From: a virus
DNA: 23,079 bases
Direction: 5' to 3' (one strand)
Virus record (IMG/VR): IMGVR_UViG_3300037586_000815
Coordinates: 1 to 23,079 of that record
The notes under the pieces are model-generated. The model ran no database searches, was not told the origin of the DNA, and saw only the letters and a program-made list of their open reading frames with translations. Shown piece after piece: positions 1,266 to 22,852 of this stretch. The first letter of the stretch is position 1; every line of letters starts with the position of its first letter. The position numbers and the translations under genes are program-made.

Positions 1266-1299
1266 AATTTCTAATTTTTATTTATTTGTTATTATTTAT

Positions 1300-1587: not shown

Positions 1588-1589
1588 AA

Positions 1590-1705: not shown

Positions 1706-2040
1706 TATGATATTTGTTTTCTAGTTCCTGTACCATGAGATGGTTCATTATAAGAAGTGTCAAGACTTTCTGAAGTTTGACTAGTCTTCTTCACTGCTCC
1801 AACTCCTGGTTTTTCTGTTGCTTTACTTTCTGTTGATTTTGTTTTCTTATTCTTTTTCATACAAGCTTTGATATCAATTCTTAATTGTTTGATAGCTTGC
1901 TCAGCAGTATAAATATCTTCTTGTACAGACTTATTAACCTCTCCACTAACAGTTGAATCATTTAGTTTTTTTTTAAGAAGTCTTATATCATCTTCTTTTT
2001 TACGTTTACTTTCTCTCATTGAACGACATGGGTCTGACAT
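1705..2040 (-). CDS. Lysine-rich helical protein, unknown
   Basis: This 111-aa protein heads the minus-strand chain. Residues about 5-65 look helical and highly charged, with a probable coiled coil. Residues 66-111 are Ser/Thr/Lys-rich and probably disordered, ending in GTGTRKQIS. The GTGTRK tail recurs in the protein at 1300-1587, although the rest of the two sequences differs. It is transcribed from a well-formed promoter (TTG, 19 bases, TATATTTG) between 2070 and 2099 and has an A-rich leader. I do not recognise a family; small, basic and partly disordered would suit a host-takeover or nucleic-acid-associated protein. Confidence 0.75.
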   Translation of the reverse strand: MSDPCRSMRESKRKKEDDIRLLKKKLNDSTVSGEVNKSVQEDIYTAEQAIKQLRIDIKACMKKNKKTKSTESKATEKPGVGAVKKTSQTSESLDTSYNEPSHGTGTRKQIS

Positions 2041-4200: not shown

Positions 4201-5199
4201 TTATGTTGTTTGTGATGCTTCAGTTGACCCTACTACATTTGATAAAGAATCATCAATTACTAATGTGTCAAGTCCATTCTTACCAGAACCTTTCATAAGA
4301 AGATAAGTATCTCCTCCACTTTCATAAGCACTTATAACATTCTTTAATCTAAGTAATCCAGAAGCAGAAACATCTGGGAAGCTAACTGTATTTCCGTTAA
4401 CAGTTAAACTTAAAAGACTTTCAGGACCTCCTTTTCCACCAATATGGTCTATAAAGTAAGTCACTGTTGTTCCATCTCCAAAATCTTCATTGATTTGTAG
4501 AAAATCAACAAATGGACTATCAAATCCTGCGTGATTAGTATTTGAAGCATCATACCACATCCAGAAATCATTTGAACCACTTCCATCTTCATAAACTAAT
4601 ATAGCTCTATCAAGATTAATCATCATATTTTCAACTGTTGTTCCTGTGGATACTCCATTTTTAGTTTCTACATTTACACTCATTAATTGATTAGATAATG
4701 CTGCTATTGAAATAGCTGGTGTTCCAGAACATGTTTCAACTGTTTCAATATCAACAGGGCGAGCAGATGACATTCTATCTGCATATTTAACTATTCCTCT
4801 AACTTTAAATGCTTTACATGTATCGGTAAAATTAGCACCTATACCAACTCCACTTCCTGCTTCAGAGGTTGATATTTTAATTGTATCCACTGTAGGAACT
4901 TCAATTACTGCATAAATTAATTCAGCAGTAACATTTGAAGGAGTACCATCTCCTGAATCCCGAAATAAAATGCGGTCGTTTATTGCTAGACCATGAGCTA
5001 CGATTGTGATTGTTTCAGCAGCATCACTAGCTGCGGTAACATCTGTTAGTGCATATTCTTTATTTGTTCCATAAATAATATGCTCAGTGTTGAATCCCAT
5101 TTCTTGTCCGATTGCATTCAAAGATGCTCCACTCCCTGTATAACTACCAAGGGTTTTCCCATCTCTTGACCAAACGCTCAGACTTATAAAATTTGCCAT
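4201..5199 (-). CDS. Beta-rich virion-type protein, unknown
   Basis: The 332-aa protein is rich in Gly, Ser, Thr and Asp and dominated by predicted beta strands, as in phage fibre, decoration or tail proteins. Residues about 64-105 contain HGLAINDRILFRDSG followed by IYAVIEVPTVDTIKIS, a pattern that resembles a short domain repeated in many phage tail/head fibre proteins. No enzyme motif, signal peptide or membrane segment is seen. It is transcribed away from the terminase gene, probably from the promoter core at 5239-5246. Being divergent from the main virion operon it may be regulated separately, for example as a decoration or host-contact protein. The family is not identified. Confidence 0.75.
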   Translation of the reverse strand: MANFISLSVWSRDGKTLGSYTGSGASLNAIGQEMGFNTEHIIYGTNKEYALTDVTAASDAAETITIVAHGLAINDRILFRDSGDGTPSNVTAELIYAVIEVPTVDTIKISTSEAGSGVGIGANFTDTCKAFKVRGIVKYADRMSSARPVDIETVETCSGTPAISIAALSNQLMSVNVETKNGVSTGTTVENMMINLDRAILVYEDGSGSNDFWMWYDASNTNHAGFDSPFVDFLQINEDFGDGTTVTYFIDHIGGKGGPESLLSLTVNGNTVSFPDVSASGLLRLKNVISAYESGGDTYLLMKGSGKNGLDTLVIDDSLSNVVGSTEASQTT

Positions 5200-5238
5200 T
5201 TGTTTATTTTTTTAATTATTAAAAGATTGATTGTTGTA

Positions 5239-5246
5239 CAAATATA
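5239..5246 (-). promoter_or_regulatory. Promoter core for the minus-strand 5199 gene
   Basis: On the minus strand the sequence reads TATATTTGTAC, 40 bases before the start codon at 5199. A -33 TTG at the usual spacing is not clear. It faces away from the core at 5279-5286, so the interval between the two genes is a compact divergent control region. Confidence 0.55.
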
Positions 5247-5278
5247 ATTATATTCTGGGTAAATTCCTAATAATTTAC

Positions 5279-5286
5279 TATATTTG
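5279..5286 (+). promoter_or_regulatory. Promoter core for the virion operon
   Basis: TATATTTG followed by TATT lies 16 bases before the ATG at 5303. Near the expected -33 position the sequence is TCTGG, an imperfect match to TTG. The location at the head of the terminase-portal block supports it. Confidence 0.6.
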
Positions 5287-5302
5287 TATTATTAAATTAA
5301 AT

Positions 5303-7333
5303 ATGAACGAAAAAAGTATACAAGGAATACCAATTAACATCCCTAAGAAGCCGAAGAAAAGTTCTATTATAGGTTATAATAAATCTAATAAGAATCAAAA
5401 GTGGACTAGAACTCCAATTCCAGATAGATGGGATTCATTAAGTGAAGTTAAAAAAAGTAAATTTATTGAACAGGAGTTTGATAGAAGGTTAAATGGAGTG
5501 TGGTTTATGAATAATGGTATAGCTACATATATAACAGGAGCTCATTATTATTATTTAAATTGGTGTAAAATTGATATAGGATATCCAGATTACTGGGATA
5601 GAGATAGAAGGTTTTTTCTTGTATGGGATGCTTCTAGAAAAGATAATCATAGTTTTGGTGTTATAATGCCTAAACATAGAAGACAAGGAGCATCTTGGAA
5701 AGCGGCATCTATTGTATTGCATGATATTACACTTTCATATAATTCTAATGGAGGTATATTAAGTAAGACAGGTAGTGATGCTAAAAAGCTCTTTGACAAG
5801 GTTGTTTACATTTTTAGAAAGTTACCATATTTCTTTCAACCTATTATTGAAGGAACGGATTCTCCTAAAACTGTACTATCGTTTAAGAAGCCTGGGGAAA
5901 GAATTACAAAGAATAATAAACAGGTTAAAGCCTCAGAAGCATTAGATAGTCAGATAGATTGGAGAAATACAAAGAATAACTCATATGATGGAGAGAAATT
6001 AAAAACTTTTATTTCAGACGAGGGTGGTAAATGGTTAGAAGCTGATTGTTCAAAGAATTGGCAAATAGTTAAACCGTCTCTTTCTCAAGGGAATAAGATT
6101 ATTGGTAAAGCTTTTTTACCATCTACAGTAAATGAAATGGAAGAAGGAGGTAAAGCATTTAAAGATATATGGGATGATTCAGACCAAGAAGATAAAGTTT
6201 TAGGTACACATAGAACTAAATCAGGACTTTACAGATACTTCACCCCTGCTTATGATGGGTTTGAAGGATTTATTGATGAGTATGGAAATAGTATTATAAA
6301 TAATCCAAAAAAGAAAATCTTTGATAAATATGGAGATGAAATAAAAATAGGAAGTAAAGATTATTTACAAAAGATAAGAGATGGTTTTAAAAACGATACT
6401 AATAAATTAGCTGAACATAAGAGACAATTTCCATGGACTCCAGAAGAAGCTTTTCGTGTTAGTACTGATGATTGTTTATTTGATTCAGAAAAAATATATC
6501 AACAAATAGATTATATAGAAGGTTCAGGAGGAAAGATGGTAACAAAAGGTAATTTTATATGGAGTAATGGTATTAAAGATACGAAAATTGTATGGAAACC
6601 AGACAAGAAAGGGAAGTGGTCTGTAGTTCTTTTACCAGATAAAGAAAAATATAATGCTCAAAAAATAAAATTTGGTAGTAAATATCCAGGTAATGATTTA
6701 GAGTTTGTTTCTGGATGTGACCCTTTTGACCATGATACTACAACTGATGGTAGAAGGTCTGATGCCGCTAGTTATGTATTTAGAAAATTTAATGCACATG
6801 AACAAGATAATTCACATATGTTTGTGTCTCAATATATACATAGACCTCCAAAAGCAGAAATATTCTTTGAAGATATATTAATGCAATGTATATTTTATGG
6901 ATGTCCTATCCTTGTGGAAAACAATAAGATAGGATTGATACAATATTTTAAACGGAGAGGATATGAAAAATATTTAATGGCTAGGCCAGAGTCTACACAT
7001 ACTTCTTTTAGTAGAAAACAAACTGAAGTTGGAATACCAGCAACAGGAGTTGCTGTTGCTAATGCTATTGTGGACTCTATACAGGCTTACGTTTATGATT
7101 ATGTGGGAGTTAATGAAGATGGGGATATAGGAAGAATATTCTTTTATGAATTATTAAAAGATTGGTTAGAGTTTGATGTAAACAATAGAACAAAACATGA
7201 CGCTAGTATGGCTAGTGGATTTACTTTATTAGCGTCGCAGAAACATATAAAACCAAAAATTAAAATAAGTACAAAACTACCTTTTGTAAGGAAATATAGT
7301 AATAATGGAAAAATATCTAAAATAATAAGATAA
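5303..7333 (+). CDS. Terminase large subunit (DNA packaging motor)
   Basis: This ATPase/nuclease pumps DNA into the prohead through the portal and cuts it. I use the ATG at 5303 (676 aa); the in-frame ATG at 5231 would place the promoter core inside the gene and add an unlikely Tyr/Ile-rich leader. A divergent Walker A, KHRRQGASWK, lies at about residues 123-132. Walker B is FISDEGG at about 235-241. The RNase-H-like nuclease domain shows GCDPFDHD at about 471-478, LVENNK at about 536-541 and KHDAS at about 631-635, giving the expected acidic triad. Length suits crAss-like terminases. No small terminase subunit is recognised nearby. The stop overlaps the portal start (TAATG), so the two are coupled. 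Confidence 0.92.
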   Translation: MNEKSIQGIPINIPKKPKKSSIIGYNKSNKNQKWTRTPIPDRWDSLSEVKKSKFIEQEFDRRLNGVWFMNNGIATYITGAHYYYLNWCKIDIGYPDYWDRDRRFFLVWDASRKDNHSFGVIMPKHRRQGASWKAASIVLHDITLSYNSNGGILSKTGSDAKKLFDKVVYIFRKLPYFFQPIIEGTDSPKTVLSFKKPGERITKNNKQVKASEALDSQIDWRNTKNNSYDGEKLKTFISDEGGKWLEADCSKNWQIVKPSLSQGNKIIGKAFLPSTVNEMEEGGKAFKDIWDDSDQEDKVLGTHRTKSGLYRYFTPAYDGFEGFIDEYGNSIINNPKKKIFDKYGDEIKIGSKDYLQKIRDGFKNDTNKLAEHKRQFPWTPEEAFRVSTDDCLFDSEKIYQQIDYIEGSGGKMVTKGNFIWSNGIKDTKIVWKPDKKGKWSVVLLPDKEKYNAQKIKFGSKYPGNDLEFVSGCDPFDHDTTTDGRRSDAASYVFRKFNAHEQDNSHMFVSQYIHRPPKAEIFFEDILMQCIFYGCPILVENNKIGLIQYFKRRGYEKYLMARPESTHTSFSRKQTEVGIPATGVAVANAIVDSIQAYVYDYVGVNEDGDIGRIFFYELLKDWLEFDVNNRTKHDASMASGFTLLASQKHIKPKIKISTKLPFVRKYSNNGKISKIIR

Positions 7334-9618
7334 TGGCAAAAACATCATTTAGCGGTTACCCAGACCCTTTCGTTTCACGAGAAGAGAAATTAGAACAAAA
7401 ATATGGGATTCAGTATTTTAAAAGAATGTATAACGAGTGGTCTAATGAAGAAGTGGGAAGTGGCTCGTATGTATCTCGTAATGAGAGATATAAGAGATAT
7501 AGAGAGTATGCGGAAGGGATGCAATCTATTGAACAATATAAAGATTTATTAGGAGCTAATGGAGATAGTTCTTATCTTAATCTTAATTGGGAAGTAGTTC
7601 CTGTTATACCTAAATTTGTAGATGTTATTGTTGGGGGACTAACTAATCAAGAGTATCAAATTAAATGCACTGCAATTGACCAAATATCTAAAGATAAAAG
7701 AACTGAAGATAGATTAAAAAAATTAACAGAAATGGAATTAAAAGAATTTCATTCTGAAATGGCTGGACTTACAGGTTTACCTTTTGATAAAGGGAACGAA
7801 GAATTACCAGAAAGCAATGAAGAATTAGACTTATACATGAATCTGAATTACAAACAGATGACTGAAATTGCAATGGAAGAAGGTATTGAGTTAACCTTTT
7901 ATTTAAATGATTGGGATGAAGTTAAAAAAAGAATAGCTAGAGACTTTGTTGTTTTAAATATAGGAGCTAGTAAAACTTCTGTTGAAGATGGTAAGTTAAC
8001 AATTAGATATGTAGACCCTTCTAATTTAATAACATCTCATACTTCAAGACCAGACTTTAAAAATATACAACATGCTGGAGAGATTATATATTTGACTATA
8101 CATGAATTAAAAAGATTAGCTGGAGATGAGTTCACTGAAGAAGAGTATATAGAGATTGCTAGAAATAATGGAGGTAAATATGGTAATCCTAAAAATTTAG
8201 GAAAGGGTTCTAATTATTATAATGAATATGAGTTACATGAGTATGATACTTATAAAATAGCTGTATTAGATGGTTTATATAAAACTGTAGATGATTTACA
8301 TTATGAGAAAAAATCTAATAAATTTGGAGGTTATTCTATTAATAAAAAAAATAAAGATTATAAACAACCTAAAAATTCAAAACAAAAGAGAACTAAATTA
8401 AAAACTACTGTAGAAAATATTTATAAAGGGAAATGGATTATTGGTACAGATTATATTTTTGATTATGGATTAGCCACTAATATACTTAGACCAAAAAGTA
8501 ATCTTTCTACAGCTATATTACCCTACTCTATTTATGCTCCTAATATATTGAATATGAATAATAAAGGTCTTGTAGAAAGAATGATTCCTTTTGCTGACCA
8601 AATACAATTATGTCATCTTAAAATACAGCATCTTATGTCTAAAGCAAAACCAAAAGGTTCTGCTATTGAATTAGGAGCTATAGAAAATGTAGGTAAGGGA
8701 GATGGAGGGACATTCACTCCTATTGAAGTTCAAGATATATATCAACAAACAGGTAATTTATATTATAGAAGTCAGCAAGATGATGGTAGTCCTTTACCAT
8801 CTATGCCTATACAAGAGTTAGGAGGAGGAATTGGTGGTGCATTACAAGAGTTAATCGCTATCTATCAATATAACTTACAAATGCTTCGTGATGTAACAGG
8901 TATAAATGAAGCTAGAGATGCAACACAACCAGATAAAGAATCTTTAGTTGGAGTACAGAAAATGGCTTTACTTGCTTCTAATAACGCTACAAGATGGATT
9001 AACCAAGCTTTACTTTCTGTAACACAAGGTACAGCTAAAAGTATAGCTTTAAGAGTTCAAGACCTTGTAAAATATACAGGAACTTATAAAGGTTATATAC
9101 AAGCTATAGGAGAATACAACATGAAAGCTATTGAAGTTAGTAAAGATGTTACTATGGCTGATTATGGTATTATGATTGAGCCGTTACCAGATGATGAGCA
9201 AAAAGCTATATTAGAACAAAATATTCAAATGTCTATACAACAAAATGCTTTAAGATTAGAAGATGCTATTATGATTAGAAATATTCATAATATTAAATTA
9301 GCAAATCAATTATTAGTTATAAGACGTAAAAAATACGCTCAAGAAGCTGCTAAAGCTGCTCAAGAGAATGCAAGAGCTAATGCTGAACAACAACAAGCTT
9401 CAATTGCTGCTAAAGCTCAAGCTGATGCTCAAGCAAAACAAATGGATGCTCAAGCTGATTTACAACAATTACAAGCTGAGTACCAAATGAAAGAAGAGTT
9501 CGCTAAAGCTGAACATGAAAGAAAGTTAGAAATAATAGAAGCTAGTGGAGAAATTAAGTCAGAACATATTGAATTAGCTCAAGATGATTCTGATTTAGTA
9601 AGAACTAAGGTGAAATAA
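7333..9618 (+). CDS. Portal protein
   Basis: The portal forms a 12-subunit ring at one capsid vertex, through which DNA enters and to which the tail attaches. The 761-aa protein follows the terminase directly. Its opening, FSGYPDPFVSREEKLEQKYG, resembles the start of crAss-like portals. A long helix-rich centre includes RDVTGINEARDA near residue 520, typical of portal proteins, where the motif DVTGI-E recurs. Residues about 665-745 form a long Ala/Gln/Glu-rich coiled coil, matching the barrel region of long portals. Size fits the family. Start codon shares one base with the terminase stop. Confidence 0.88.
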   Translation: MAKTSFSGYPDPFVSREEKLEQKYGIQYFKRMYNEWSNEEVGSGSYVSRNERYKRYREYAEGMQSIEQYKDLLGANGDSSYLNLNWEVVPVIPKFVDVIVGGLTNQEYQIKCTAIDQISKDKRTEDRLKKLTEMELKEFHSEMAGLTGLPFDKGNEELPESNEELDLYMNLNYKQMTEIAMEEGIELTFYLNDWDEVKKRIARDFVVLNIGASKTSVEDGKLTIRYVDPSNLITSHTSRPDFKNIQHAGEIIYLTIHELKRLAGDEFTEEEYIEIARNNGGKYGNPKNLGKGSNYYNEYELHEYDTYKIAVLDGLYKTVDDLHYEKKSNKFGGYSINKKNKDYKQPKNSKQKRTKLKTTVENIYKGKWIIGTDYIFDYGLATNILRPKSNLSTAILPYSIYAPNILNMNNKGLVERMIPFADQIQLCHLKIQHLMSKAKPKGSAIELGAIENVGKGDGGTFTPIEVQDIYQQTGNLYYRSQQDDGSPLPSMPIQELGGGIGGALQELIAIYQYNLQMLRDVTGINEARDATQPDKESLVGVQKMALLASNNATRWINQALLSVTQGTAKSIALRVQDLVKYTGTYKGYIQAIGEYNMKAIEVSKDVTMADYGIMIEPLPDDEQKAILEQNIQMSIQQNALRLEDAIMIRNIHNIKLANQLLVIRRKKYAQEAAKAAQENARANAEQQQASIAAKAQADAQAKQMDAQADLQQLQAEYQMKEEFAKAEHERKLEIIEASGEIKSEHIELAQDDSDLVRTKVK

Positions 9619-10713: not shown

Positions 10714-12096
10714 ATGCCTTATACTACTACACCTGGGATTCCTAGTGCTTTCCAGGTCGCTACAAGCGAAAATTACGTTTCTACGCTTAGTATTCACAAA
10801 CCAGAAATTGCTGAAGACTTTGTTAATAGATACGGAGAACAATCCCTAATGGGATTCTTAGATGCAGTTGGAGCTATGGCTCCTGTTTCTCAAAGAAAAT
10901 ATGAACACTATGAAGATGATTATTTACACCAAAACTTCAAACAAACTGGGACACCTACTATTACCACTGCTGGGTCTCCAAATATTACTTTAGACGATTC
11001 TTATTCTTCTGATGGTACCTCTGCTGGTAACTTCTTTTTAAGAGTTGGAGATATTGTACAAAATAGTTACGGAGAGATTGCTCTTTGTACTGCTAGACCT
11101 GCTAACAATACAGCTACTTTAGTACCTTATAAAAATTCATCATGGACAGCTTTAACTGCTGCGGATGTATTAATTATAATTGGTAATGAGTGGGAAGAAG
11201 GTACTGGTCAACCAGATGGTATCACTCCAACGGCTAATCACTATGAGAACTATACTATGATTATGAAAGATTCATTCCAGGTAACTGGTTCTGAAGCTAC
11301 TAATAAAATATGGTTTAAAGTGAATGACGCTGCAACTGGAAAATCTGGATACCTATGGTACTTAAAAGGTGAAGGTGATACCTACAAAAGATTTAATAAC
11401 TATTGTGAAACTCAAATGTTATTAGGTCAAGTTGTTACTAACACGAATGCTGCTATACAGCCATTAAGTTATACTACACAGACTGGTGGTATTAATGGTA
11501 CTGAAGGTTTAATTGACTTTATGAGAAGTGGTAATTCACAGACTTATAATCAATTAGCTGGGTTTAACTTATCTGATTTTGATTCTATGATTCGTACACT
11601 AGATGCTAACAGAGGAGCTAAAGAAAACACTATGTGGTGTGGAATTGACTTATCATTAGCTATTGACGATGCAGTTGCTGCAATGTTTGCTGGTGGAGGT
11701 ATTTCTTATGGAGCATTTAATGGTTCTGAGGAAATAGGAGTTGCTTTCGGATTTAAATCATTCGCAAGAGGTGGATATACTTTCCATAAGAAAGCATATG
11801 AAGCTTTAAGTTATTCTCCAATGATGGGTGCTTCAGGATACAACTATGCTGGAATGGGACTTGTTATTCCTGGAGATAAAGGTAAAGATGCTAAATCTAG
11901 AGAGTCTATTCCTTCTTTAAGAGTTAGATATAAAGAAGCTGGAGGATACTCTAGAAAAATGGAGCACTGGTTAACAGGTTCTGCTGGATTAGCTAATCCT
12001 ACTTCTGATGTAGATGAGTTAAGATGTCACTACAGAACAGAAAGAGGATTTGAAGGATTCGCGAACAACAGATTCATCTTACTTGAAAGAGCTTAA
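10714..12096 (+). CDS. Major capsid protein (HK97 fold)
   Basis: This 460-aa protein should form the icosahedral shell. It follows the scaffold and is followed by an intrinsic terminator, as expected for the most abundant product. The N-terminal part has IHKPEIAEDFVNRYGEQS at about residues 28-45 and a long helix-turn region up to YEHYEDDYLHQNFK, a pattern seen in crAss-like capsid proteins. Later regions, GGISYGAFNG and GYTFHKKAYEALSYSPM, resemble the closing beta sheet of the A domain. Length is close to crAss-like capsid proteins of about 490 aa. No pro-peptide is obvious. It may be a folding client of the GroES-like protein at 2668-3240. Confidence 0.85.
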   Translation: MPYTTTPGIPSAFQVATSENYVSTLSIHKPEIAEDFVNRYGEQSLMGFLDAVGAMAPVSQRKYEHYEDDYLHQNFKQTGTPTITTAGSPNITLDDSYSSDGTSAGNFFLRVGDIVQNSYGEIALCTARPANNTATLVPYKNSSWTALTAADVLIIIGNEWEEGTGQPDGITPTANHYENYTMIMKDSFQVTGSEATNKIWFKVNDAATGKSGYLWYLKGEGDTYKRFNNYCETQMLLGQVVTNTNAAIQPLSYTTQTGGINGTEGLIDFMRSGNSQTYNQLAGFNLSDFDSMIRTLDANRGAKENTMWCGIDLSLAIDDAVAAMFAGGGISYGAFNGSEEIGVAFGFKSFARGGYTFHKKAYEALSYSPMMGASGYNYAGMGLVIPGDKGKDAKSRESIPSLRVRYKEAGGYSRKMEHWLTGSAGLANPTSDVDELRCHYRTERGFEGFANNRFILLERA

Positions 12097-12121
12097 TTAA
12101 GTTCTTGATTACATAAAGAAA

Positions 12122-12155
12122 GGGGAGGACTTGTCTCCTCCCTAATCTTTTTTTT
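12122..12155 (+). terminator. Terminator after the capsid gene
   Basis: GGGAGGA (12123-12129) and TCCTCCC (12136-12142) form a seven-pair GC-rich stem around CTTGTC. TAATC and eight or more T residues follow. It is 26 bases beyond the capsid stop codon and should reduce transcription into the following gene. Confidence 0.85.
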
Positions 12156-12179
12156 ATTAATTATATTAAATTTAAGAAA

Positions 12180-13067
12180 ATGGCAAAAAAGAAAAAACAA
12201 ATTACTATCTTTAGATTAGTAAACAAAAATGAAAAACCTTCCACTGAAGGTCGTCAATATCCAGTTAGTCACAGAATACCATCAATAGACGAAGTATTTG
12301 ATGAAACAACTGGAAGAAACAGAAAAATCCAATATGTTTTAGGGGAACAATCAATTTATGCAGATGAACAATCATCTTTTAATCCCGTATTAGGAGATAT
12401 TATATTTCATAATGGTTCTTTACCTGTTCAATATCAGCAAGTTACTTTAAGAGAGTTTTTAGAAAAAAGTAATTATAATATTTCTAATCCAGAAAGAATG
12501 AGTAATAAGAAATCTATTTTTGAAACTGTTAATTTAGAAAGTAATGCAGAGAAAGATTTAGAAAGCTTAGAGTCAGAATTTCATGTTATGGAAACCTTAA
12601 TGTCTATGGATGCACAAAAAATGGTTGGATACGCTAGAGCTATGGAAGTAGATGTAGATAGAAGTATGTATGAAATTAAACATGATATGATGGTTATGGC
12701 TAAAAATAATCCAGAGTTATTTATGGAGAAAATTTCTAATCCTAAACTTGAAAGAAAACAAGTTATTATGGATGCTGAAGAAGGTAAAATATTAACAATA
12801 GATGTAGTTAATAGACAAGTTAAATGGGGGTTTGGTTCAAAACAAATGATAACTGTTATTCCTGTAGGACTTAATCCTTATGACCATTTTGTGGATTACA
12901 CTTTTGAAACTGAAGGTAAAGAAGTTTTTAATAAAATTGTTAAATTATTAAAAGGTGAAACTATAGAGAAAAAAGTATCAAAACCAAAATTACCTTCAAC
13001 ACCTAGTCAACAAGATATAAGTGATGTGAATATTAAGAAAAGTAATACTGTTAGTAAGGTAAAATAA
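12180..13067 (+). CDS. Putative virion-associated protein, unknown
   Basis: The 295-aa protein starts MAKKKKQITIFRLVNKN. Residues 1-85 are a beta-rich region. Residues about 115-190 are helical, with FHVMETLMSMDAQKMVGYAR. Residues about 195-255 form a second beta region ending in PYDHFVDYTFETEGKEVF. The last 35 residues are Lys/Ser/Pro-rich. No family is recognised. Position between capsid and fibre genes and a terminator on each side suggest a structural or assembly role at a level different from the capsid. The leader TTAAATTTAAGAAA matches that of the scaffold gene, but no TATATTTG core lies just upstream, so it probably relies on readthrough of the terminator at 12122-12155. Confidence 0.75.
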   Translation: MAKKKKQITIFRLVNKNEKPSTEGRQYPVSHRIPSIDEVFDETTGRNRKIQYVLGEQSIYADEQSSFNPVLGDIIFHNGSLPVQYQQVTLREFLEKSNYNISNPERMSNKKSIFETVNLESNAEKDLESLESEFHVMETLMSMDAQKMVGYARAMEVDVDRSMYEIKHDMMVMAKNNPELFMEKISNPKLERKQVIMDAEEGKILTIDVVNRQVKWGFGSKQMITVIPVGLNPYDHFVDYTFETEGKEVFNKIVKLLKGETIEKKVSKPKLPSTPSQQDISDVNIKKSNTVSKVK

Positions 13068-13174: not shown

Positions 13175-16051
13175 ATGGCAGGAGCAGTAGGATATTTTTT
13201 AACCGCTTTTTCAAGAAGATATAAAACAACAGACCCATCATACTTTGTAGATGTTATGTTTACGCAAGGTACTATTACTATGGGGGGTATATCAAATTCC
13301 CCTCAGTTTATGAACTTATCATTAGGGAATAATCATACTGTTGAAGATATCACAGGAGATAACTCTACTAATCCTAATATGTTTGTTGGCAATACTAATG
13401 AACCAAATGGTGCTATTGATTTTGGTGCATATGCTTCTGGTATTAGGTATGATTATTCTGATTTACCATCTGCTGCTACAGATAGAACATATAGAATTAC
13501 TTGGGGTCCTTGCGTATCTTGTCCTCCATCTACAACATTACCAAATGGTACTACAAAGATAGTAACATTAATGGTTCAAGGTAAAGCTCAATTCCAAAAT
13601 TCCACTGAGGCTTTAATGGATGCGGATGAAATACCAGGAGAAGTGTCTCAACTTGTAAGTCATCTAGCAGTTAGAGAATTTATAGCTGGATTAGGTCCTG
13701 GTGGATATGGGGATGTATGGCGTATCAAAGAGATGAGCTTTATAGGTTTATGGATGACTGAAGGAGGAAGGCCTCTATCTGGAGGAGCGAATTTAGATTG
13801 CACTTTAGTTATGGGCCCCACTGACTTTGCTAGTACTAATAATGCTATCCCAGATTTAACATTCTATACTAGAGAAAATATTGACCAAAAGGGTACATTT
13901 CAAGATTTTAAATTTAGACCAGATGCTGATGCAGATTACTCAGCTGGTGTTACTCATACTGATAATGTTGGATGTGGTAATACTCCTAGAATAGCATTTG
14001 ATTCTAAATGGATGAGGAAGGAATTAATAAATCAAGGAGCTTCTGGAATTAATGATGATAGTCAATATCTTTCTTATTGGAGAAGTCCTATTGGATTAGT
14101 ACCAGACACGCATATATCAGTTATTATAGGCCCTGAATTTTTAGGTGCGAGAGGTACTGTTTCTGATTTAAGTTATACTAATAATGCTTCTTATGCTACT
14201 ATTCTTGATGAATACAAAAAAACAGCTACTTATAATTTTACTACAAGTGGGGTTCCTTCTGGTAATGGGTTTGCTTTTACAACTTGGGCAGATAGTAATA
14301 TTAATCCTTGTGAAAATTCTACTCTTTCTTATAGCTTAGTAACACATAATAATGAGAGTGTAGCTGGAGCGAATGATGGGGAATTAGAAATAGTAGGTAC
14401 AGGAGGATTAGCTCCATATACTTATGAGTGGAGTGATGCAAGTGGTGGTGTTTGGGGTAATACAGCTTTAATAACAGGATTACCTCCTAATACTTACTTT
14501 TGTAAAATAGAAGATGCGTTTGGGTGTACAGTTAGTGTTTCTTTCACAATTCTTGGTGGTCCTGCTCCATGTCAAGGAACGGTTACTATAAGTCAACAAC
14601 CAGGGGATGGATGTGCTATGGTTGATTTAACTCCTACAGTTTCAAATTTAGCTAATGGGGTAACAACATATACTTGGGAATGGTTAGACCCTAGTGGTAG
14701 TGTCGTTTCTTCTGGAAACAATACTCAAGGACAAACATGGGCGGCAAATTCTGCTACAGACCCAGGATTATATACTTTTCAGATAGATTTAGGAAATGGA
14801 TGTATACAAAGTGGGACTATTGCTGTAGTCGCTGCTAATACTCCGACATTAAATGTAACATATACAAATGTTACTGTTAGTGGTGGTTCTGATGGTACAG
14901 CTACAGTCACAGTTACTGGGGGGGTATCTCCATATACTTATTTATGGTCTAATGGAGCAACTACAGCTGCTATCACTGGATTAACAGCTGGTACTTATAC
15001 AATTGTAGTAACTGATGATAGAGGATGTACCGATACGAAGACTATTGTAATTACAGAGCCACAAATTTATATTCCTTCAACTGTTTCTCCATTAGATGTG
15101 TGTGTAGATTTATCAACAAATACATTTATTTTTACAGATAATCAAAATTATGTTGGTGCTGGTTTAATATTACCATATAAAATAGCTATTACGGTTAAAC
15201 TTGTAAATAATGGAAATACTATCTATACTGGGAACTTATCTTCTCCAGATATTTATATAGATAATGATATATCTGCCGCTAGAACATATAATGCTACAAC
15301 AAAGTATGGTACAAATGAGATTATACCTATATTATATTTAGGAACATTATATAATGATATTTATGAAATAACATTTGATTGGAATTTTCAAGGTACTATT
15401 ACAGTAGATGCAACTCAAACAATTAATTTAAATTTATTAAATATAATTACATTTAACTCTTTATCTATCACTTCTTCAATGAGTTATAATTGTAATGATG
15501 ATATAATAAATAGTTTAGATACAACCAGTTATTCTATTAACAGTATTCCTTATACATTTACAAGAACACATTCTTTATTACCTCCAAATGCATCTAGCCT
15601 TTCGTCTCCTGTGTTATCTTCTTCTGCAAGTGCATTGAATTATACAGGATTAGAAATTGGAGTGTGGTCTAATAGTATTGAATCAAGTATTATATGGGAT
15701 TTCCCAGGCACTCCAAATTATCTGGAATATTGTATTATTCAAGACTTAACACATACAAATAGTATAGATGTAGATTGTTATGTTGACCCTTGTGTAATAG
15801 TACAGTGTATTGAAAAAGTTAGAGATAAATTAGCAACTGCTGAATGTGATTGTAATGAAAATGATATTAAAAAATATAGAGGAATATTAAAGAGAGTTGG
15901 TCATTTATTAGCTATGTTTGATATTGCATTAACATGTAGTGATATAATTCTTGACTATACATTACTATATGATATAATAGATTTAACTGACTGTGGTTGC
16001 GATTGTGAGTGTCCTGATGGTTGTGATGGAATGGAGATTAGTAGTGGATAA
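13175..16051 (+). CDS. Fibre/adhesin-type virion protein with SprB-like repeats
   Basis: The 958-aa protein has four parts. Residues 1-380 are a beta-rich, probable virion-anchoring region without a recognised family. Residues about 383-462 and 558-628 are two SprB-type repeats (GG--PYTYEWS / GGVSPYTYLWSNG, then ITGLTAGTYTIVVTDDRGCT), the module of the gliding adhesin SprB of Bacteroidota. Between them (about 466-551) is a PKD/Ig-like domain with WEWLDPSG and PGLYTFQI. A beta-rich stretch follows to about 870. The final 85 residues are Cys-rich, starting near CIEKVRDKLATAEC and ending in CGCDCECPDGC. The next gene copies this last domain. Position between capsid and ring genes and the adhesin repeats suggest a head or tail fibre that contacts the host. 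Runs of G6 and G7 occur inside it. Confidence 0.78.
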   Translation: MAGAVGYFLTAFSRRYKTTDPSYFVDVMFTQGTITMGGISNSPQFMNLSLGNNHTVEDITGDNSTNPNMFVGNTNEPNGAIDFGAYASGIRYDYSDLPSAATDRTYRITWGPCVSCPPSTTLPNGTTKIVTLMVQGKAQFQNSTEALMDADEIPGEVSQLVSHLAVREFIAGLGPGGYGDVWRIKEMSFIGLWMTEGGRPLSGGANLDCTLVMGPTDFASTNNAIPDLTFYTRENIDQKGTFQDFKFRPDADADYSAGVTHTDNVGCGNTPRIAFDSKWMRKELINQGASGINDDSQYLSYWRSPIGLVPDTHISVIIGPEFLGARGTVSDLSYTNNASYATILDEYKKTATYNFTTSGVPSGNGFAFTTWADSNINPCENSTLSYSLVTHNNESVAGANDGELEIVGTGGLAPYTYEWSDASGGVWGNTALITGLPPNTYFCKIEDAFGCTVSVSFTILGGPAPCQGTVTISQQPGDGCAMVDLTPTVSNLANGVTTYTWEWLDPSGSVVSSGNNTQGQTWAANSATDPGLYTFQIDLGNGCIQSGTIAVVAANTPTLNVTYTNVTVSGGSDGTATVTVTGGVSPYTYLWSNGATTAAITGLTAGTYTIVVTDDRGCTDTKTIVITEPQIYIPSTVSPLDVCVDLSTNTFIFTDNQNYVGAGLILPYKIAITVKLVNNGNTIYTGNLSSPDIYIDNDISAARTYNATTKYGTNEIIPILYLGTLYNDIYEITFDWNFQGTITVDATQTINLNLLNIITFNSLSITSSMSYNCNDDIINSLDTTSYSINSIPYTFTRTHSLLPPNASSLSSPVLSSSASALNYTGLEIGVWSNSIESSIIWDFPGTPNYLEYCIIQDLTHTNSIDVDCYVDPCVIVQCIEKVRDKLATAECDCNENDIKKYRGILKRVGHLLAMFDIALTCSDIILDYTLLYDIIDLTDCGCDCECPDGCDGMEISSG

Positions 16052-16079: not shown

Positions 16080-16337
16080 ATGGCAATAACTACAATATGT
16101 GATGTATACTGTTGTATAGAAACAATAAATAATAAATACCTTGCAGCTGAATGTGCAAATCCAAAATTAGCTGAAGAATATTTAGCTATATTAGATAAGG
16201 TTACTGTACTTATTGGATTATATGGGATTGTTTCTAATTCTAGTAACGCTCCTTGTTATGATGAAACACAAGCAACGGCATATTTAACAGAAATAGCAAC
16301 ATTAACAAACTGCAGTGAAACCTGTGGTTGTTCATAA
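16080..16337 (+). CDS. Small Cys-rich protein, paralogue of fibre C-terminus
   Basis: This 85-aa protein aligns with the last 85 or so residues of the fibre before it. CIETINNKYLAAEC here matches CIEKVRDKLATAEC there with identical cysteine spacing. A Y--IL--V--L helix follows in both, and both end with an I--LT-C segment and CGC. It is therefore a free-standing copy of that domain. The copy may cap, stabilise or help trimerise the fibre, or decorate the same site. It lies 28 bases after the fibre stop with an A-rich leader and no promoter core of its own, so it is probably co-transcribed with the fibre. Confidence 0.72.
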   Translation: MAITTICDVYCCIETINNKYLAAECANPKLAEEYLAILDKVTVLIGLYGIVSNSSNAPCYDETQATAYLTEIATLTNCSETCGCS

Positions 16338-16347: not shown

Positions 16348-17118
16348 ATGGCTATTAATATAGATGAAATGTACAGGTTTGTTCAATTTGTAGCAAACAA
16401 AGAACAATCAGGATTTATAAAACCTTCAGAGTTTAATCTTGCCGCAGATAGAGCTCAGATGCAATTATTTATGGAAAGATATAATAATCCAGCTGAATAT
16501 CAACCAGGTAGACCAATACCTAGAGTTGCTTATCAACAAACTCAAAAAATATCTGATGATTTAAGGATGTTTATAAAAAGAGTTACTCTAACTATTAACT
16601 CTAATGGCATGATGAATTATCCTGATGATTATATACATTTTAGTAAAGCGACATATAGATATTTTTCAGAAATAGATATAGATGATAGTTCTGCAAATGC
16701 TGGATGTGTGGATTGTTCATCTCCTGTTTCTGGTCAATCATCAACAACTACAATAGAAAAAACTGTTGGAATTAAACCTGTAGATGATTCAGAATTAAAT
16801 AAACTTTTATCAAGTAGTATTGTAGCTCCTACATTAGAGTTCCCTATACTTGCATTTTTTGAAGATGGTATCCAATATTATCCTAAAACTTTATCTTCTG
16901 CAGAATTAACATATTTACATAGACCTACAGTTCCGTTTTGGGATTCAACTTTAGTGGATGATAGACCAGTATATAGTCCTGGTGGCTCTACAGATTTAGA
17001 ATGGTCTGAACAAGTTTTTAATGAAATTGCTGTTAGAATATTAGCATTTGTAGGAGTGAATCTTAGAGAGGTTGAGTTAACTCAATATAGTGAAGGTAAA
17101 CGACAAACAGGAATATAA
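16348..17118 (+). CDS. Probable head-tail connector/ring protein
   Basis: The 256-aa protein is mostly helical at the N-terminus (INIDEMYRFVQFVANKEQSG, then a FNLAADRAQMQLFMERY helix) with a beta-rich centre and an LEWSEQVFNEIAVRILAFVG helix at the end. This architecture, and position as the first of three similar-sized genes before the muzzle, suits a ring protein of the crAss-like tail or a connector that seals the portal. A Cys pair (CVDC, near residue 120) is unusual. There is no enzyme motif. It begins 10 bases after the previous stop and ends 3 bases before the next start. Identity is inferred from synteny more than from motif. Confidence 0.6.
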   Translation: MAINIDEMYRFVQFVANKEQSGFIKPSEFNLAADRAQMQLFMERYNNPAEYQPGRPIPRVAYQQTQKISDDLRMFIKRVTLTINSNGMMNYPDDYIHFSKATYRYFSEIDIDDSSANAGCVDCSSPVSGQSSTTTIEKTVGIKPVDDSELNKLLSSSIVAPTLEFPILAFFEDGIQYYPKTLSSAELTYLHRPTVPFWDSTLVDDRPVYSPGGSTDLEWSEQVFNEIAVRILAFVGVNLREVELTQYSEGKRQTGI

Positions 17119-17121: not shown

Positions 17122-17748
17122 ATGGCGACAACAAAATTACAAATATCAGAACAAATACTTAGAATATTAAATTCAGGAGATATAACTAACGATAATGATA
17201 TTGATATTAGAGAAATAATTCTTGCTGTTGAGCAAGAAAGAGATAGATTAGTAAGATTAAGATTATTTGAATCTTTACAAATGGGAGAGATGATTGTAGC
17301 TGGGGATGTAATATCTTCTTTTGATGATGTTTTAATAAAAAAAGACCATGATAAAGATATGTTATATTCAGAGTTACCAGGGAATCCTTTATCATTACCA
17401 AATGATTATGGAGTTTGGCAAGTAAGTTATCAAAAAAATCAAAAGAGTTCATTTATAAGGATGCCTAATGGCTCTATGGGATTATATAATGGATTAACAT
17501 CTTCTGCTTTAGGAGGTAGAGATGGATTTTTTGTAGAAGGTAATAGAATTTATTATAATGATAGTGTGAGTGACTGTTGTGGACATACAGTATTAATTAA
17601 AATGGTATTAAATTCTGGCAGTATAGCTAATGATGTTATATTCCCAATTCCAGCTGATATTCAATCAGAAGTTATTAAAAATGTAGCTCAGTTATATTCT
17701 ATGACAAAACAGATACCACATGACGAACAAAACGATAATATAGAATAA
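17122..17748 (+). CDS. Probable ring/tail-connector protein
   Basis: The 208-aa protein starts with a helix pair (TTKLQISEQILRILNSGD and IREIILAVEQERDRLVRLRLFE). Residues about 95-150 are beta-rich, with SFIRMPNGSMGLYNGL and FFVEGNRIYYND. It closes with PIPADIQSEVIKNVAQLYSM. Short-tailed phage head-tail connector proteins (P22 gp4 / T7 gp11 type) share a helix-sheet-helix order like this, and the PxPxxIQSEVI ending is typical of related crAss-like ring proteins as I recall them. It sits between two other presumptive ring genes with intergenic gaps of 1-3 bases. No promoter or terminator interrupts the run to the muzzle. Confidence 0.65.
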   Translation: MATTKLQISEQILRILNSGDITNDNDIDIREIILAVEQERDRLVRLRLFESLQMGEMIVAGDVISSFDDVLIKKDHDKDMLYSELPGNPLSLPNDYGVWQVSYQKNQKSSFIRMPNGSMGLYNGLTSSALGGRDGFFVEGNRIYYNDSVSDCCGHTVLIKMVLNSGSIANDVIFPIPADIQSEVIKNVAQLYSMTKQIPHDEQNDNIE

Positions 17749-17749: not shown

Positions 17750-18487
17750 ATGAATAGTAGTGTAAAGTTAGATGAAGTAGTTAAGTCCTTATTAATACAA
17801 CAAGGAGAATATACAGAGCATAAATATATGCAATATTTAGAATTAGCTCTTAGAGGGTTAAAAGAATTATCTTTTGATGTATTAATGGAGGTTAAAGTGG
17901 CTACATTACCTGTTAATACAAATTTAACTGTAGATTTACCATGTGATTATGTAAACTATACTAGAATAGGTGTATGTAAACCTGATGGTAGAATATATAC
18001 ATTAGGAGTGGATGAGCAAATTTGTTTAAGTAGAGATATAGATTACTGTGGTGAAGAAGAAGCTAATACAGGAAGATTAGGAGGCACATGGATAGGGAAT
18101 TATAGAAATGGAGAATCTGTTGGTGGAGTTTATGGATTAGGAGGGGGTCAAAACGCTAATGGTTATTATAGAATAGATAGAGAAAATAATCAAATTGCTT
18201 TATCTTCAGATGTTCAGCATACAGAAATTGTTTTAGAATATATTAGTGATGGTTCTAATGTAAATGGAGATAATGTAATCAATACATTATCTGAAGAAGC
18301 TTTAAGAGCTTATATATATTGGAAATCTATACAAAGAAAAAGAAATTCTACTGGGCAAGATAGAGAAATGGCTAGAAGAGATTGGTATAATGAAAAGAGA
18401 CTTGCTAGAGCGAGAGTGATAAACTTCACTCCTGACCAAGCTAGAAGAATTACAAGAAAAGGATTTAAGCAATCTCCTAGATTTTAA
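17750..18487 (+). CDS. Tail tubular/ring protein (T7 gp11-like)
   Basis: The 245-aa protein has helices at residues 5-50, then TVDLPCDYVNYTRIGVC (about 65-81), a Gly-rich loop (GLGGGQNANG) and GYYRIDRENNQIAL (about 142-156). It ends in EIVLEYISDG and an EALRAYIYWKS helix. The order LP-DYV-Y-RIG, then YRID-ENNQI, then EY-SDG, then a helix with YIYWKS is characteristic of tail tubular/ring proteins of crAss-like and T7-like phages. It probably forms the ring joining the portal-side rings to the muzzle, as it is the gene directly before the latter. A basic C-terminus (RRITRKGFKQSPRF) is noted. Confidence 0.75.
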   Translation: MNSSVKLDEVVKSLLIQQGEYTEHKYMQYLELALRGLKELSFDVLMEVKVATLPVNTNLTVDLPCDYVNYTRIGVCKPDGRIYTLGVDEQICLSRDIDYCGEEEANTGRLGGTWIGNYRNGESVGGVYGLGGGQNANGYYRIDRENNQIALSSDVQHTEIVLEYISDGSNVNGDNVINTLSEEALRAYIYWKSIQRKRNSTGQDREMARRDWYNEKRLARARVINFTPDQARRITRKGFKQSPRF

Positions 18488-18490: not shown

Positions 18491-21400
18491 ATGTTAGAGA
18501 AGAAAATAGTCGCTGGAGGTGGGATGGACATGGATACAGATGAAAGATTTGTAGCTAAATCAGATTACCGTAAAGCTATTAATTGTCGTATTAATGCGTC
18601 TGATGAAGATAGCGTTGGGACTGTTGAAAATATACGCTCTAATAAACTTATAATAAATCCTGATTTTACAAATGGTATAGTTATAGGTAGTTATGAAGAT
18701 TTAAACGCTCATGTTATATATTATTTTGTATCTGGTACTGCTTCAGGAACAGATTCTATATTTAAATATAATCCTCAAAATGAAGTAATAGAAACAGTAT
18801 TACAAAGTAATATATTAAATTTTAGTAAAAACAAATTAATTACTGGAGTTAATGTATTGGGAGATGATAAAGATAAATTTCCACAAGGATTGCTTTATTG
18901 GACTGATGATAGAAATCCTCCTAGAAAAATAAATATAGCTAAAGCATTAACAGGAGGGTATCCAACTATAGACGCTCAAACACTAGATGCTATTAAGTAT
19001 CCTCCTGCAAAATATCCAGAAGCTATAGGAGTTAATAATGGGTATACTAATGATGTATTAATAAACTCTAATCAATTAAAAGGTAAATCATATCAGTTTA
19101 AGTATAGATGGGTATATGATGATGGAGAAAAAAGTACATGGTCTCCTATTAGTCCTGTTTATATAGACAATACATTTGCTGCTTTTTATAATGTTTCAGG
19201 ATTAACTCAAAATTTAAATAATGTTCTTCCAATTAAGTTTAATTCAGGACATCATACCGTAGATAGAATACAGATATCTTCTAGAAATACAAATGGATTA
19301 GATGATTTTGTATTAATAGCTGATATTAAGAAAAATGACGTAACAGAACAACTTGCTTTAAGTACAACAGCAACTGTTACTACAATTTCTCCTGCTCCTT
19401 ATCCAGGCTCATTATTAGATGATACAGATTATGAGTTTTATTTTTATAATGATGGTATATATGCTACTATTGATATTATAGAATCAAATATGTTATATAG
19501 TGATATACCTCATCAAGCAAAAGCTCAAGAAATTGTAGAAGGAAATAGATTAGTCTATGGTAATGTTGTTTCTGGTCAAACTGGTATTACTGGTAAAAAC
19601 ATAACTTTAACAGCAATACAACCTACTACATCAGCTATAAATAATACAGCAGCTCAAGTTCAAAATCCAAATGTACAATATCAAGCTCGTCTTTGTATAG
19701 GGTGTGACCTACCTGCAGTAGGTAGTGGTACAAGAAGGGTCACTCAATCAACGTATATGATTAGGTGGCAAATAACACAACCAGCGGTAGGATGTTTTAG
19801 CGCATATAGTTTAAATTTAAATAATTTACTTTTCTCTAAGATAATAGCAAAAAACGACCAAGGTGGTCCTTTCGGAGCTGGAGAAGAAGACCACGAGTCT
19901 AATTTAGGTATTATCAATCTTGCTTATAATTCTGGATTATACGCTAGCACGATTAATGTTAATAATATAGCGGCTGCTATAGCTGTGGAATTAAATAGTT
20001 ACGCTCAAACTGGTTTTAATACCGTTGATGGGGGTGAGACTATAGTAACGAATGGAGGTGGGGGTAATTATTCAGTTAGAAGTATAGGAGCTAATGATGT
20101 TGATAGTTCAGAAGGCCCAAAGGGACATGCTCATACAGGAATTAACGGAATTGTATTTTCATCTAATGGTAGTTGGGTTCAGATGAATGTTACAATGCAG
20201 GTAGGAACTGATTACCCTCTTGATACTACTAGTACTTGTCATATTGATTCTACACCTCCAGATACAGCAAATGAGCCTTTTAGTATGTATACAGGTTGGG
20301 TTAATGCACTAACTGGAGACTGTACAGTTTCTGGAGACGCTAATCAACATGCTTTATGTTTAGCGAAAGCTAAAATTGGTTTTAAGGTTGGAATGGGGTA
20401 TGACTGGGCTGGTACTCAAGGAGCTGCTGGTAGGTTTGAAACAGGTTCAAATAGTACAATAGAATTAGAGGTGAATGCTGCCACTCATAATAGAAGTTGT
20501 GACCATGATATTTCTAATGGAGACCAAGCTTTTATGGTTACATATGCAGCATGGGTTGCAGCGATAGGAGCAGCTAATGGAAAATTACAAGAAGCAGGTC
20601 AGAGTTTTACATCTACAATATGTCCAATTGCAGGACAACAACCTATAGTACCTTCTTTTAAAACAGGAGCAAAACATAGATTTGGGTTAGTTTATTATGA
20701 CGAAGGTAATAGAAGTTCATCTGTTCAACTAGCAAGTGTTTCTGATGTTTATATTCCTAAAAATCCAGACGCAGCTACAGCTACGAATCCAGTAGGTAAT
20801 TTTGGGGAATGGAATATTGATTGGACTATTAATCACCCTCCTCCAACATGGGCAACTCACTATCAATGGGTTTATGGAGGTAATACATTAACAGATGATT
20901 TTATTCAGTTTGTTACAGATGGTGTTTATGATGGAGTTAACGCTCTTAAGGATGATATGAGTGGTAATAATTTTTCAGCAGGTAACTTTGGAGATAATAT
21001 ATTAGTAGATATTAGTAATATAAAACAGTTTGCAGATGCTAACGGAGGAGGTACAGTAACATATGATTTTCAAGAGGGAGATATTTTAAGGTTCGTATTA
21101 GACCAAAATGATGTTGAACCTACAGCTGCTAATAATCCAACTATTACACTTAATGGAGTTGTAACGAATATAGCAAATGGTACTCCTTGGGAATTTAAAA
21201 TTATAGGGGTAGTAGGTCAAAAAGATATACCTGATATTTTATTTCAAAGTGTTAATCCTAGTACAACAATTACTACAGGAACTCCATCAGCTGGTATTAG
21301 TGGAAATGGAATTTTTGCCAGTCCAATAGTAGGAGCTCAACACTATCTTGTATTAGCTAGAGAAACGGTATTAACGCCATTTTTAGATTCATCACCTAAC

Positions 21401-22852
21401 GCTGCCCCAACATTTGCTGGGTGGACTTTAGAGATATATTCTCCTAAAAAGACGACAGAAGAAGATAATGTTATATATAGTGAATTTGGAGAATGGGGAA
21501 CTATACAATCAGGTAATCATAGAGCTATAGATGACCCTACCATAGTAGCTAATACATGGGCTCAACATCAAATAATTGGGACTCAATCAGCTACAGGTAG
21601 ATTTAGAAGTGGAGATGTTTATTTAAGAAATAGAGTTACTAGAAGTGTTAAAATGATTACTCCAATGGAATCTTTTCATTTTTCTGATAATTTTAAATCT
21701 GATTATTGGGATAAAGGTAGACCTAATGCTGTATTAGAAGACTTTAAAAGAACTAGAAAATTTGCAACATGTTTGTATTCAGAACCTTATATACCTAATA
21801 CAAATATTAATGGATTAAACATGATTGTGCCAGATGTTTCTTTCCAAGAATTTGAAAGGTCGTATAATTCTATACAAAAAATACATTCTAGAGATAATAA
21901 TTTAATTATTTTCCAAGAAGATAAAATATCTAAATCTTTAGTAAATAAAAATATTATGTATAATATGGATGGTAGTGGTAATATAGCTGCTACAGATTCA
22001 GTGTTATCCGTAGCTGTACCTTATTTAGGTAATTATGGTATATGTCAAAATCCAGAATCATTTGCTTCTCATGGATTAAGAATGTATTTTACAGATATTA
22101 AAAGAGGTTGTGTTTTAAGATTATCTCAAGATGGATTAACTGAAATATCTATGTATAAGATGAAAGATTACTTTAGTGATTTAAGTGTCACTATTCTTAA
22201 AGAAGCTAATTTTAATAATTATAAAATAAAAGGAGTTTTTGATAGAAAATATGGAGAATATATTATTTCGTATGATAAGATATTAGGAGAGATGATGGAC
22301 CCTAATAATCCTACTATACAAGAAATTATTTTACATTCTTCTACACTAGGATTTACAGAGCCAACTAATAGATGGAATAGTTTTTATAGTTATTATCCAG
22401 AAATGATGTGTTCTTCAGGGGTTGGTATTGTATCTTATGTAGGAGGAAATTTATATCATCATGATATAGGAGTGGATGCTTTACAAGAAAGAGAGTATAA
22501 TAAATTTTATGGGAATAATGTCTCAAGTGACTTATGGTTAGTTAGTAATGTAGCTCCTTCAAATAATAAAATATATAAAGCTATATCTACAGAATCCGAT
22601 AATATTTGGAGCGTTACAATTGATAATAAACAAGGTCAATCAACTAATATTTTTACTACAGATTTTGATACTAGAGAAAATATTCATTATTCTAAAATAT
22701 ATAATGATATAAATAGTCCAGGAGGCATGATAGAGGGAGATAAGATAAGAAGTACGTCTGCTTTAATTAAATTATCTATTACATCAAATAGTCTTGAAAG
22801 ACTGTTTGGAGTGAATATTAATTTCTCTCCAAGCGAAAGAAGTAATAAATAA
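18491..22852 (+). CDS. Tail muzzle/stabilisation protein
   Basis: This 1453-aa protein is the largest in the window. It opens with VAGGGMDMDTDERFVAKSDY and INCRINASDEDSVGTVENI, the usual N-terminal signature of phage stabilisation proteins (P22 gp10-like) and of the crAss-like muzzle. A long middle is beta-rich, with YRWVYDDGEKSTWSPISPVY (about 201-220) and repeated fibronectin/propeller-type strands. The C-terminal third contains NPESFASHGLRMYFTDIKRG and VLRLSQDGLTEIS (about 1180-1220), also typical. It should form the tail tip that closes the DNA channel and carries host-binding proteins. Cysteines are scattered. It ends just before a new promoter at 22854. Confidence 0.82.
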   Translation: MLEKKIVAGGGMDMDTDERFVAKSDYRKAINCRINASDEDSVGTVENIRSNKLIINPDFTNGIVIGSYEDLNAHVIYYFVSGTASGTDSIFKYNPQNEVIETVLQSNILNFSKNKLITGVNVLGDDKDKFPQGLLYWTDDRNPPRKINIAKALTGGYPTIDAQTLDAIKYPPAKYPEAIGVNNGYTNDVLINSNQLKGKSYQFKYRWVYDDGEKSTWSPISPVYIDNTFAAFYNVSGLTQNLNNVLPIKFNSGHHTVDRIQISSRNTNGLDDFVLIADIKKNDVTEQLALSTTATVTTISPAPYPGSLLDDTDYEFYFYNDGIYATIDIIESNMLYSDIPHQAKAQEIVEGNRLVYGNVVSGQTGITGKNITLTAIQPTTSAINNTAAQVQNPNVQYQARLCIGCDLPAVGSGTRRVTQSTYMIRWQITQPAVGCFSAYSLNLNNLLFSKIIAKNDQGGPFGAGEEDHESNLGIINLAYNSGLYASTINVNNIAAAIAVELNSYAQTGFNTVDGGETIVTNGGGGNYSVRSIGANDVDSSEGPKGHAHTGINGIVFSSNGSWVQMNVTMQVGTDYPLDTTSTCHIDSTPPDTANEPFSMYTGWVNALTGDCTVSGDANQHALCLAKAKIGFKVGMGYDWAGTQGAAGRFETGSNSTIELEVNAATHNRSCDHDISNGDQAFMVTYAAWVAAIGAANGKLQEAGQSFTSTICPIAGQQPIVPSFKTGAKHRFGLVYYDEGNRSSSVQLASVSDVYIPKNPDAATATNPVGNFGEWNIDWTINHPPPTWATHYQWVYGGNTLTDDFIQFVTDGVYDGVNALKDDMSGNNFSAGNFGDNILVDISNIKQFADANGGGTVTYDFQEGDILRFVLDQNDVEPTAANNPTITLNGVVTNIANGTPWEFKIIGVVGQKDIPDILFQSVNPSTTITTGTPSAGISGNGIFASPIVGAQHYLVLARETVLTPFLDSSPNAAPTFAGWTLEIYSPKKTTEEDNVIYSEFGEWGTIQSGNHRAIDDPTIVANTWAQHQIIGTQSATGRFRSGDVYLRNRVTRSVKMITPMESFHFSDNFKSDYWDKGRPNAVLEDFKRTRKFATCLYSEPYIPNTNINGLNMIVPDVSFQEFERSYNSIQKIHSRDNNLIIFQEDKISKSLVNKNIMYNMDGSGNIAATDSVLSVAVPYLGNYGICQNPESFASHGLRMYFTDIKRGCVLRLSQDGLTEISMYKMKDYFSDLSVTILKEANFNNYKIKGVFDRKYGEYIISYDKILGEMMDPNNPTIQEIILHSSTLGFTEPTNRWNSFYSYYPEMMCSSGVGIVSYVGGNLYHHDIGVDALQEREYNKFYGNNVSSDLWLVSNVAPSNNKIYKAISTESDNIWSVTIDNKQGQSTNIFTTDFDTRENIHYSKIYNDINSPGGMIEGDKIRSTSALIKLSITSNSLERLFGVNINFSPSERSNK

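Follow-up and report, generated by a model that had tools for sequence, protein, structure and literature searches.

A modular SprB-repeat gene with a conserved C-terminal module in the structural cluster of an uncultured crAss-like phage

The stretch of DNA analysed here, called the window below, comprises 23,079 nucleotides (positions 1 to 23,079 of IMG/VR record IMGVR_UViG_3300037586_000815) and derives, judging from its genes, from an uncultured crAss-like phage. Between its capsid and muzzle genes lies P0001, which encodes a large modular protein in which an initial annotation had recognized two repeats of the SprB type at residues 383-462 and 558-628. Both repeats were recovered by the Pfam SprB profile PF13573, which matched two stretches of P0001 (E 6.7e-13; 48.5 bits, the cut-off being 28), and by a repeat profile of our own, which agreed to within a few residues (approximately 391-461 with 64 bits and 559-632 with 103 bits, in a stop-to-stop numbering whose first residue lies two ahead of the initiating ATG). 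The domain between them had been described as PKD-like. No PKD match above the Pfam cut-off was obtained in P0001 (PKD_6, E 0.025, 15.3 bits against 25), so that the PKD assignment is confirmed in part only; AlphaFold2 modelled the first repeat, the middle domain and the second repeat as three beta-sandwiches with a predicted local distance difference test (pLDDT) score of about 70-93 (about 70-88 for the middle one), and the modelled fold of the middle domain is compatible with PKD. The PHROG profiles that match the repeats represent Hoc-like head decoration, and a Foldseek search with the immunoglobulin (Ig)-type part of the protein placed the Aureispira adhesin GhpA and the Hoc protein of phage RB49 among its top matches. 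No NCBIfam sorting domain of the type IX secretion system (T9SS) was found in P0001. Orthologues occupy the same locus, with the same neighbours, in the related contigs L003 (49% identity) and L004 (45%), and the N-terminal domain is recognizable by sequence in these two and the window phage only. The L004 orthologue is broken by a frameshift where the second SprB repeat ends (L004:11700-11860), its remainder lying in the next open reading frame (ORF; 11839-12783); there is no obvious homopolymer at the site, and assembly error, decay or switching are all compatible with it.

Downstream of the repeats, residues ~636-953 of P0001 form a C-terminal module that is conserved and exchanged between relatives. 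Further copies lie at the corresponding locus in L003 (truncated at the contig end), L004, L019 (in two ORFs), L100 and L180, and a more distant copy is present in L101. Other domains stand ahead of it in the window phage, L003, L004, L100 and L180, while in L019 it lies at the N-terminus of its ORF and is followed by a leucine-rich stretch (Pfam LRR_4). AlphaFold2 modelled the module as two FN3-like sandwiches and three helices (mean pLDDT 78). The next gene encodes an 85 amino acid (aa) protein that resembles the C-terminus of P0001 at 30-33% identity (profile E about 1e-27 to 1e-31); PHROG 13715, considered as a bridge to this protein, gave a marginal match (E 0.011, and 0.0013 for one record). 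A profile search of PDB sequences with the module matched nothing, and neither did a search of cultured phages with two queries. What is new here is that the likely anchor lies at the C-terminus, in a recurring unit with varied flanking domains. The initial annotation had proposed to look for a virion-anchoring domain at the N-terminus, and it is the opposite end that is conserved and exchanged. The coordinates of these features and of the surrounding genes are given in the table.

Table 1. Features of the window, with coordinates in nucleotides
Feature	Coordinates	Strand	Evidence or remark
P0001, modular SprB-repeat gene (candidate adhesin/fibre)	13175..16051	+	958 aa; ORF intact
N-terminal domain, fast-evolving, residues 1-378	13175..14308	+	No Pfam match
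SprB repeat 1, residues ~385-462	14327..14560	+	Pfam, repeat profile, AlphaFold2
Middle beta-sandwich, weakly PKD-like, residues 463-556	14561..14842	+	PKD_6 below cut-off, AlphaFold2
SprB repeat 2, residues 557-632	14843..15070	+	Pfam, repeat profile, AlphaFold2
Tandem FN3-like beta domains, residues 633-868	15071..15778	+	Conserved in relatives; AlphaFold2; proposed anchor with helical part
Cys-rich three-helix domain, residues 869-958	15779..16048	+	Homologous to 85-aa product; part of proposed anchor
Terminase large subunit	5231..7333	+	phrog_6681 E 6e-149
Portal protein	7333..9618	+	phrog_6547 E 2e-132
Major capsid protein	10714..12096	+	PF23898 Crass_capsid E 3e-9; phrog_13704 E 1e-62
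Protein 3' of capsid gene, possibly gp33-like	12180..13067	+	phrog_34748
85-aa protein, stand-alone Cys-rich helical domain	16080..16337	+	Matches P0001 C-terminus
Virion structural protein, putative tail ring protein	16348..17118	+	phrog_14543
208-aa protein within ring-gene block	17122..17748	+	61-91% identity in L004, L180, L019
Virion structural protein, putative tail ring protein, adjoining muzzle gene	17750..18487	+	phrog_13977
Tail muzzle protein	18491..22852	+	PF25731 crAss_MUZ E 9e-19; PF25729

The genes surrounding P0001 form a crAss-like structural gene cluster, with terminase, portal, capsid and muzzle genes and three genes in ring positions. The Crassvirales structural module was identified by matches to PF23898, PF25731, PF25729, phrog_6681 and phrog_6547, with terminase and portal in order, and two of the three ring-position genes match PHROG families of virion structural proteins. 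For the terminase, the ATG at 5303 is a more likely start than the mechanically assigned TTG. Comparison with crAss001 by hhalign gave a probability of 54% for the post-capsid protein against gp33 and a weak match (33%) for the first ring-position protein against gp34. This setting fits the view, already taken in the initial annotation, that P0001 would be a virion protein. By capsid protein the closest cultured phages are Cellulophaga phages phi38:1 and Calle, Maribacter phage Panino and Flavobacterium phage elemo (27-29% identity), and this kinship suggests a Flavobacteriia-like host. Three extra fibre-like genes (about 220-270, 530-545 and 510 aa) lie at the P0001 locus in L019 (14329-18161), L100 (13455-17329) and L180 (13474-17541); in place of this block the window phage has just the 85-aa gene, perhaps a remnant of the ~530-aa gene. 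Elsewhere in the window, a conserved 332-aa gene with no assigned function adjoins the terminase gene on the opposite strand (4201-5199, minus strand) and has counterparts of 376-378 aa in L003 and L004, and a group of small, strongly charged proteins without assigned function is encoded at 632-2040 (minus strand).

We traced the origin of the repeats by scanning viral and genome collections with repeat 2 as the query. The closest bacterial repeats, with ~63-65% identity to repeat 2, come from several orders of Bacteroidota (Flavobacteriales, Saprospiraceae, Chitinophagales, Hymenobacter and others). A profile built from bacterial repeats alone scored higher than one built from other phages for both repeat 2 (105.8 against 86.1 bits) and repeat 1 (69.2 against 61.4), although both sets were drawn by one query and the far larger bacterial set favours the bacterial score. 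In a weakly resolved tree of 107 repeats and 73 columns, the first and second repeats of the crAss-like clade occupy two separate positions, each within Bacteroidota repeats. An approximately unbiased (AU) test on 47 repeats disfavoured a single clade of every sampled phage repeat (p-AU 0.023), a value to be read as indicative, as the groups were named by sequence source, the set was picked after the first tree and the columns are few. The same caution applies to the rejection of a tandem duplication of one repeat within the phage, for which a single clade of the crAss-like repeats was disfavoured with p-AU 0.034. Because the repeats nest separately among Bacteroidota repeats and a phage-only clade is disfavoured, an ultimately bacterial source is supported, and the bacterial affinity proposed by the initial annotation is borne out. 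Base composition is uninformative on recent transfer, the GC content at third codon positions (GC3) of the SprB part resembling the rest and its total GC being higher.

P0001 is not unique among phage genes in carrying repeats of the SprB type. At first-look sensitivity none were found in 50 other capsid-related records among the matches listed, a list that includes L019 and leaves L100 and L180 outside. A different phage group (L181, L182 and L185-L192) encodes proteins that are about 680-1180 aa long and hold 6-8 SprB-like repeats by our profile; their array ORFs lie near 9.4-13 kb and have a similar C-terminal region, with 302-aa and ~990-aa genes upstream. Among the array proteins compared with PHROGs, that of L189 matches the Hoc-like head decoration family phrog_2973 (E 1.4e-11) and that of L185 gave a marginal, unrelated match only; those upstream neighbours of the L185 array gene that were tested matched no PHROG. 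Two repeats flanked by Thr/Pro-rich stretches are present in L183 (9365-10639) and L184 (9422-10576), a baseplate-wedge gene lying a few genes upstream in L184, and L193 and L194 carry one and two SprB-like repeats, respectively. A BFVD entry is titled 'SprB repeat [uncultured Caudovirales phage]', while a literature search on SprB and phages, which covered few subscription papers, returned nothing about SprB repeats in phages.

Rates of divergence differ sharply along P0001. Identity to the orthologues is 46-49% over the whole protein, whereas terminase, portal and capsid proteins reach 89-92%, and within P0001 the N-terminal domain (37-45%) is far more diverged than the C-terminal module (72-77%). 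Against L004 alone identity falls from 72-77% in the C-terminal module to 59% in the second SprB repeat and 37% in the N-terminal domain, with terminase, portal and capsid at 89-90%. A fast N-terminal domain and a slow C-terminal module fit a binding tip over a conserved base. Since the module stays while other parts change, the C-terminus rather than the N-terminus is likely to be the attached end. We therefore favour, with a probability of roughly 60%, a joint reading in which P0001 is a modular Hoc-like display adhesin, either a head decoration or a tail fibre, of a crAss-like phage of a Bacteroidota host, and in which the SprB repeats go back ultimately to Bacteroidota adhesin genes and were present in this phage lineage before its sampled members diverged. 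On this reading the two FN3-like domains and the Cys-rich helical domain would hold the protein on the virion, a stalk would be built of the SprB, PKD-like and SprB domains, and the N-terminal domain would face outwards as a tip that contacts host-surface or environmental ligands, probably glycans.

Several observations weigh against the display-adhesin proposal. AlphaFold2 gave no reliable model for the first ~380 residues when run on residues 1-634, and Foldseek searches with the C-terminal module yielded generic FN3 matches only, with low template modelling (TM) scores. At the corresponding locus, phi38:1, elemo and the environmental record MW202828 have no gene between the post-capsid gene and the first ring gene, and Panino has five short ORFs only; P0001 and the 85-aa gene are therefore not common to these relatives. 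Because the cultured relatives and MW202828 are without such a gene, the incorporation of P0001 into virions is argued from its position.

An alternative that we consider unlikely is that the Ig-type domains bind no ligand themselves and act as passive spacers, or as decoration by which particles are stabilized or dispersed; this may hold for many phage Ig-like domains. Such domains are frequent on phage particles, Hoc helps virions to disperse (PMC10385173), and repeat 2 shows weak matches to T5-type decoration proteins and a neck-whisker protein. Both repeats of P0001 nevertheless group with Bacteroidota adhesin repeats, away from the other sampled phage repeats, and the N-terminal domain changes fastest, as a binding tip would.

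Somewhat more doubtful is a tail-hub fibre, in which the C-terminal module would correspond to the crAss001 hub protein THA (gp38) and the 85-aa protein to THB (gp39), so that the SprB adhesin is fused straight onto the collar hub without a separate docking fibre. THA and THB lie immediately 5' of a ring gene, like P0001 and the 85-aa gene, and by eye THA shares with the module an order of parts in which a beta domain is followed by Cys-rich helices with a terminal CxC motif; the disulfide-containing A2B trimers formed by the crAss001 hubs (PMC10172136) also count in favour. Promising as it looked, this homology failed three comparisons: Pfam crAss_THA (PF25724) matched neither P0001 nor its kin, hhalign comparisons with 11 THA homologues, made for the module and for its helical part, gave probabilities under 1%, and our own profile test matched a 5-column CxC tail only, on which an unrelated control scored equally. 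A broader version, which we hold to be less probable again, treats the C-terminal FN3 and Cys-helix module of environmental crAss-like phages as an exchangeable adapter that equals the tail-collar hub in place and role and that receives whole adhesin modules (of SprB, LRR or other type) by direct fusion. If this were true, hub and receptor-binding fibre would be a single protein.

The initial annotation had also raised mimicry of a host adhesin and, from the SprB repeats, a gliding flavobacterium-like host. Flavobacteriaceae include gliding members, and both the homology of the repeats to SprB and the infection of Flavobacteriaceae by the cultured relatives could suggest that, in a gliding flavobacterium, P0001 would latch onto the host's SprB, or onto what SprB binds, or compete with either. 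Nothing was found in support of mimicry as such, and we judge it very improbable, as SprB repeats are spread through many secreted Bacteroidota proteins of several orders and P0001 is without a T9SS sorting domain. Of four bacterial SprB proteins tested, three (L117, L134 and L107) had such a domain above cut-off and L102 had one scoring below it, and the four Bacteroidota genomes checked hold from 4 to 63 SprB matches each. These repeats are best read as marking secreted Bacteroidota proteins and not gliding; being too widespread across the phylum, they were dropped as an indicator of gliding in the host, and the cultured kin of the phage are the better guide to its host. An artefact, by which P0001 would be chimeric or derive from contaminating host DNA and not from the phage, is suggested by the bacterial look of the repeats and has a negligible probability, because contig L002 is 99.995% identical across 18.5 kb spanning its overlap with the window (though probably from the same phage, and hence not independent support) and diverged orthologues with the same neighbours occur at the locus in L003 and L004, as they do in L180 and L100; the ORF is no assembly chimera.

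Taken as a display adhesin, P0001 is a fresh example of a known theme and not a new kind of system. It shows that crAss-like phages beyond the well-studied gut group carry the SprB-type adhesin repeat of Bacteroidota joined to a conserved module that can be swapped, much as gut crassviruses carry BACON. It also offers the testable idea that crAss-like phages swap surface-binding parts with bacteria of the host phylum, and the module of residues ~636-953 provides a handle for spotting more adhesins in uncultured crAss-like phages.

The close precedents are the BACON and PKD modules of crAss-like gut phages, in which these and other Ig-like domains occur in modular proteins near structural genes and BACON repeats were acquired in part through the horizontal transfer of individual domains (PMC6949934, PMC13370021). 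P0001 shares with them a crAss-like phage of Bacteroidota, Ig-type domains beside structural genes and modular combinations, but has SprB in place of BACON, a different and undescribed C-terminal module, and a phage that is not known as a gut phage. Hoc-like decoration proteins (T4 and RB49 Hoc; PHROG 2973 and 4069) resemble P0001 through the profiles that match its repeats. Hoc in some cases carries its binding domain at the opposite end (PMC10385173), and the C-terminal module of P0001 is at most a candidate relative of the Hoc capsid-binding domain; the Ig-type domains of P0001 are SprB repeats, and it has an extra N-terminal domain of 378 aa. With the tail-hub proteins THA and THB of crAss001 the likeness is one of gene-order place and order of parts, without significant sequence or profile similarity to the module. 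Finally, the repeats are homologous to those of the SprB gliding adhesin and other T9SS-secreted Bacteroidota proteins, and GhpA of Aureispira is the top solved-structure fold match of the Ig-type part (E 3.5e-9, 19-21% identity); in contrast to the giant bacterial SprB proteins with their many repeats, P0001 has two, carries no T9SS sorting domain, has no link to motility and stands in the structural locus of a phage.
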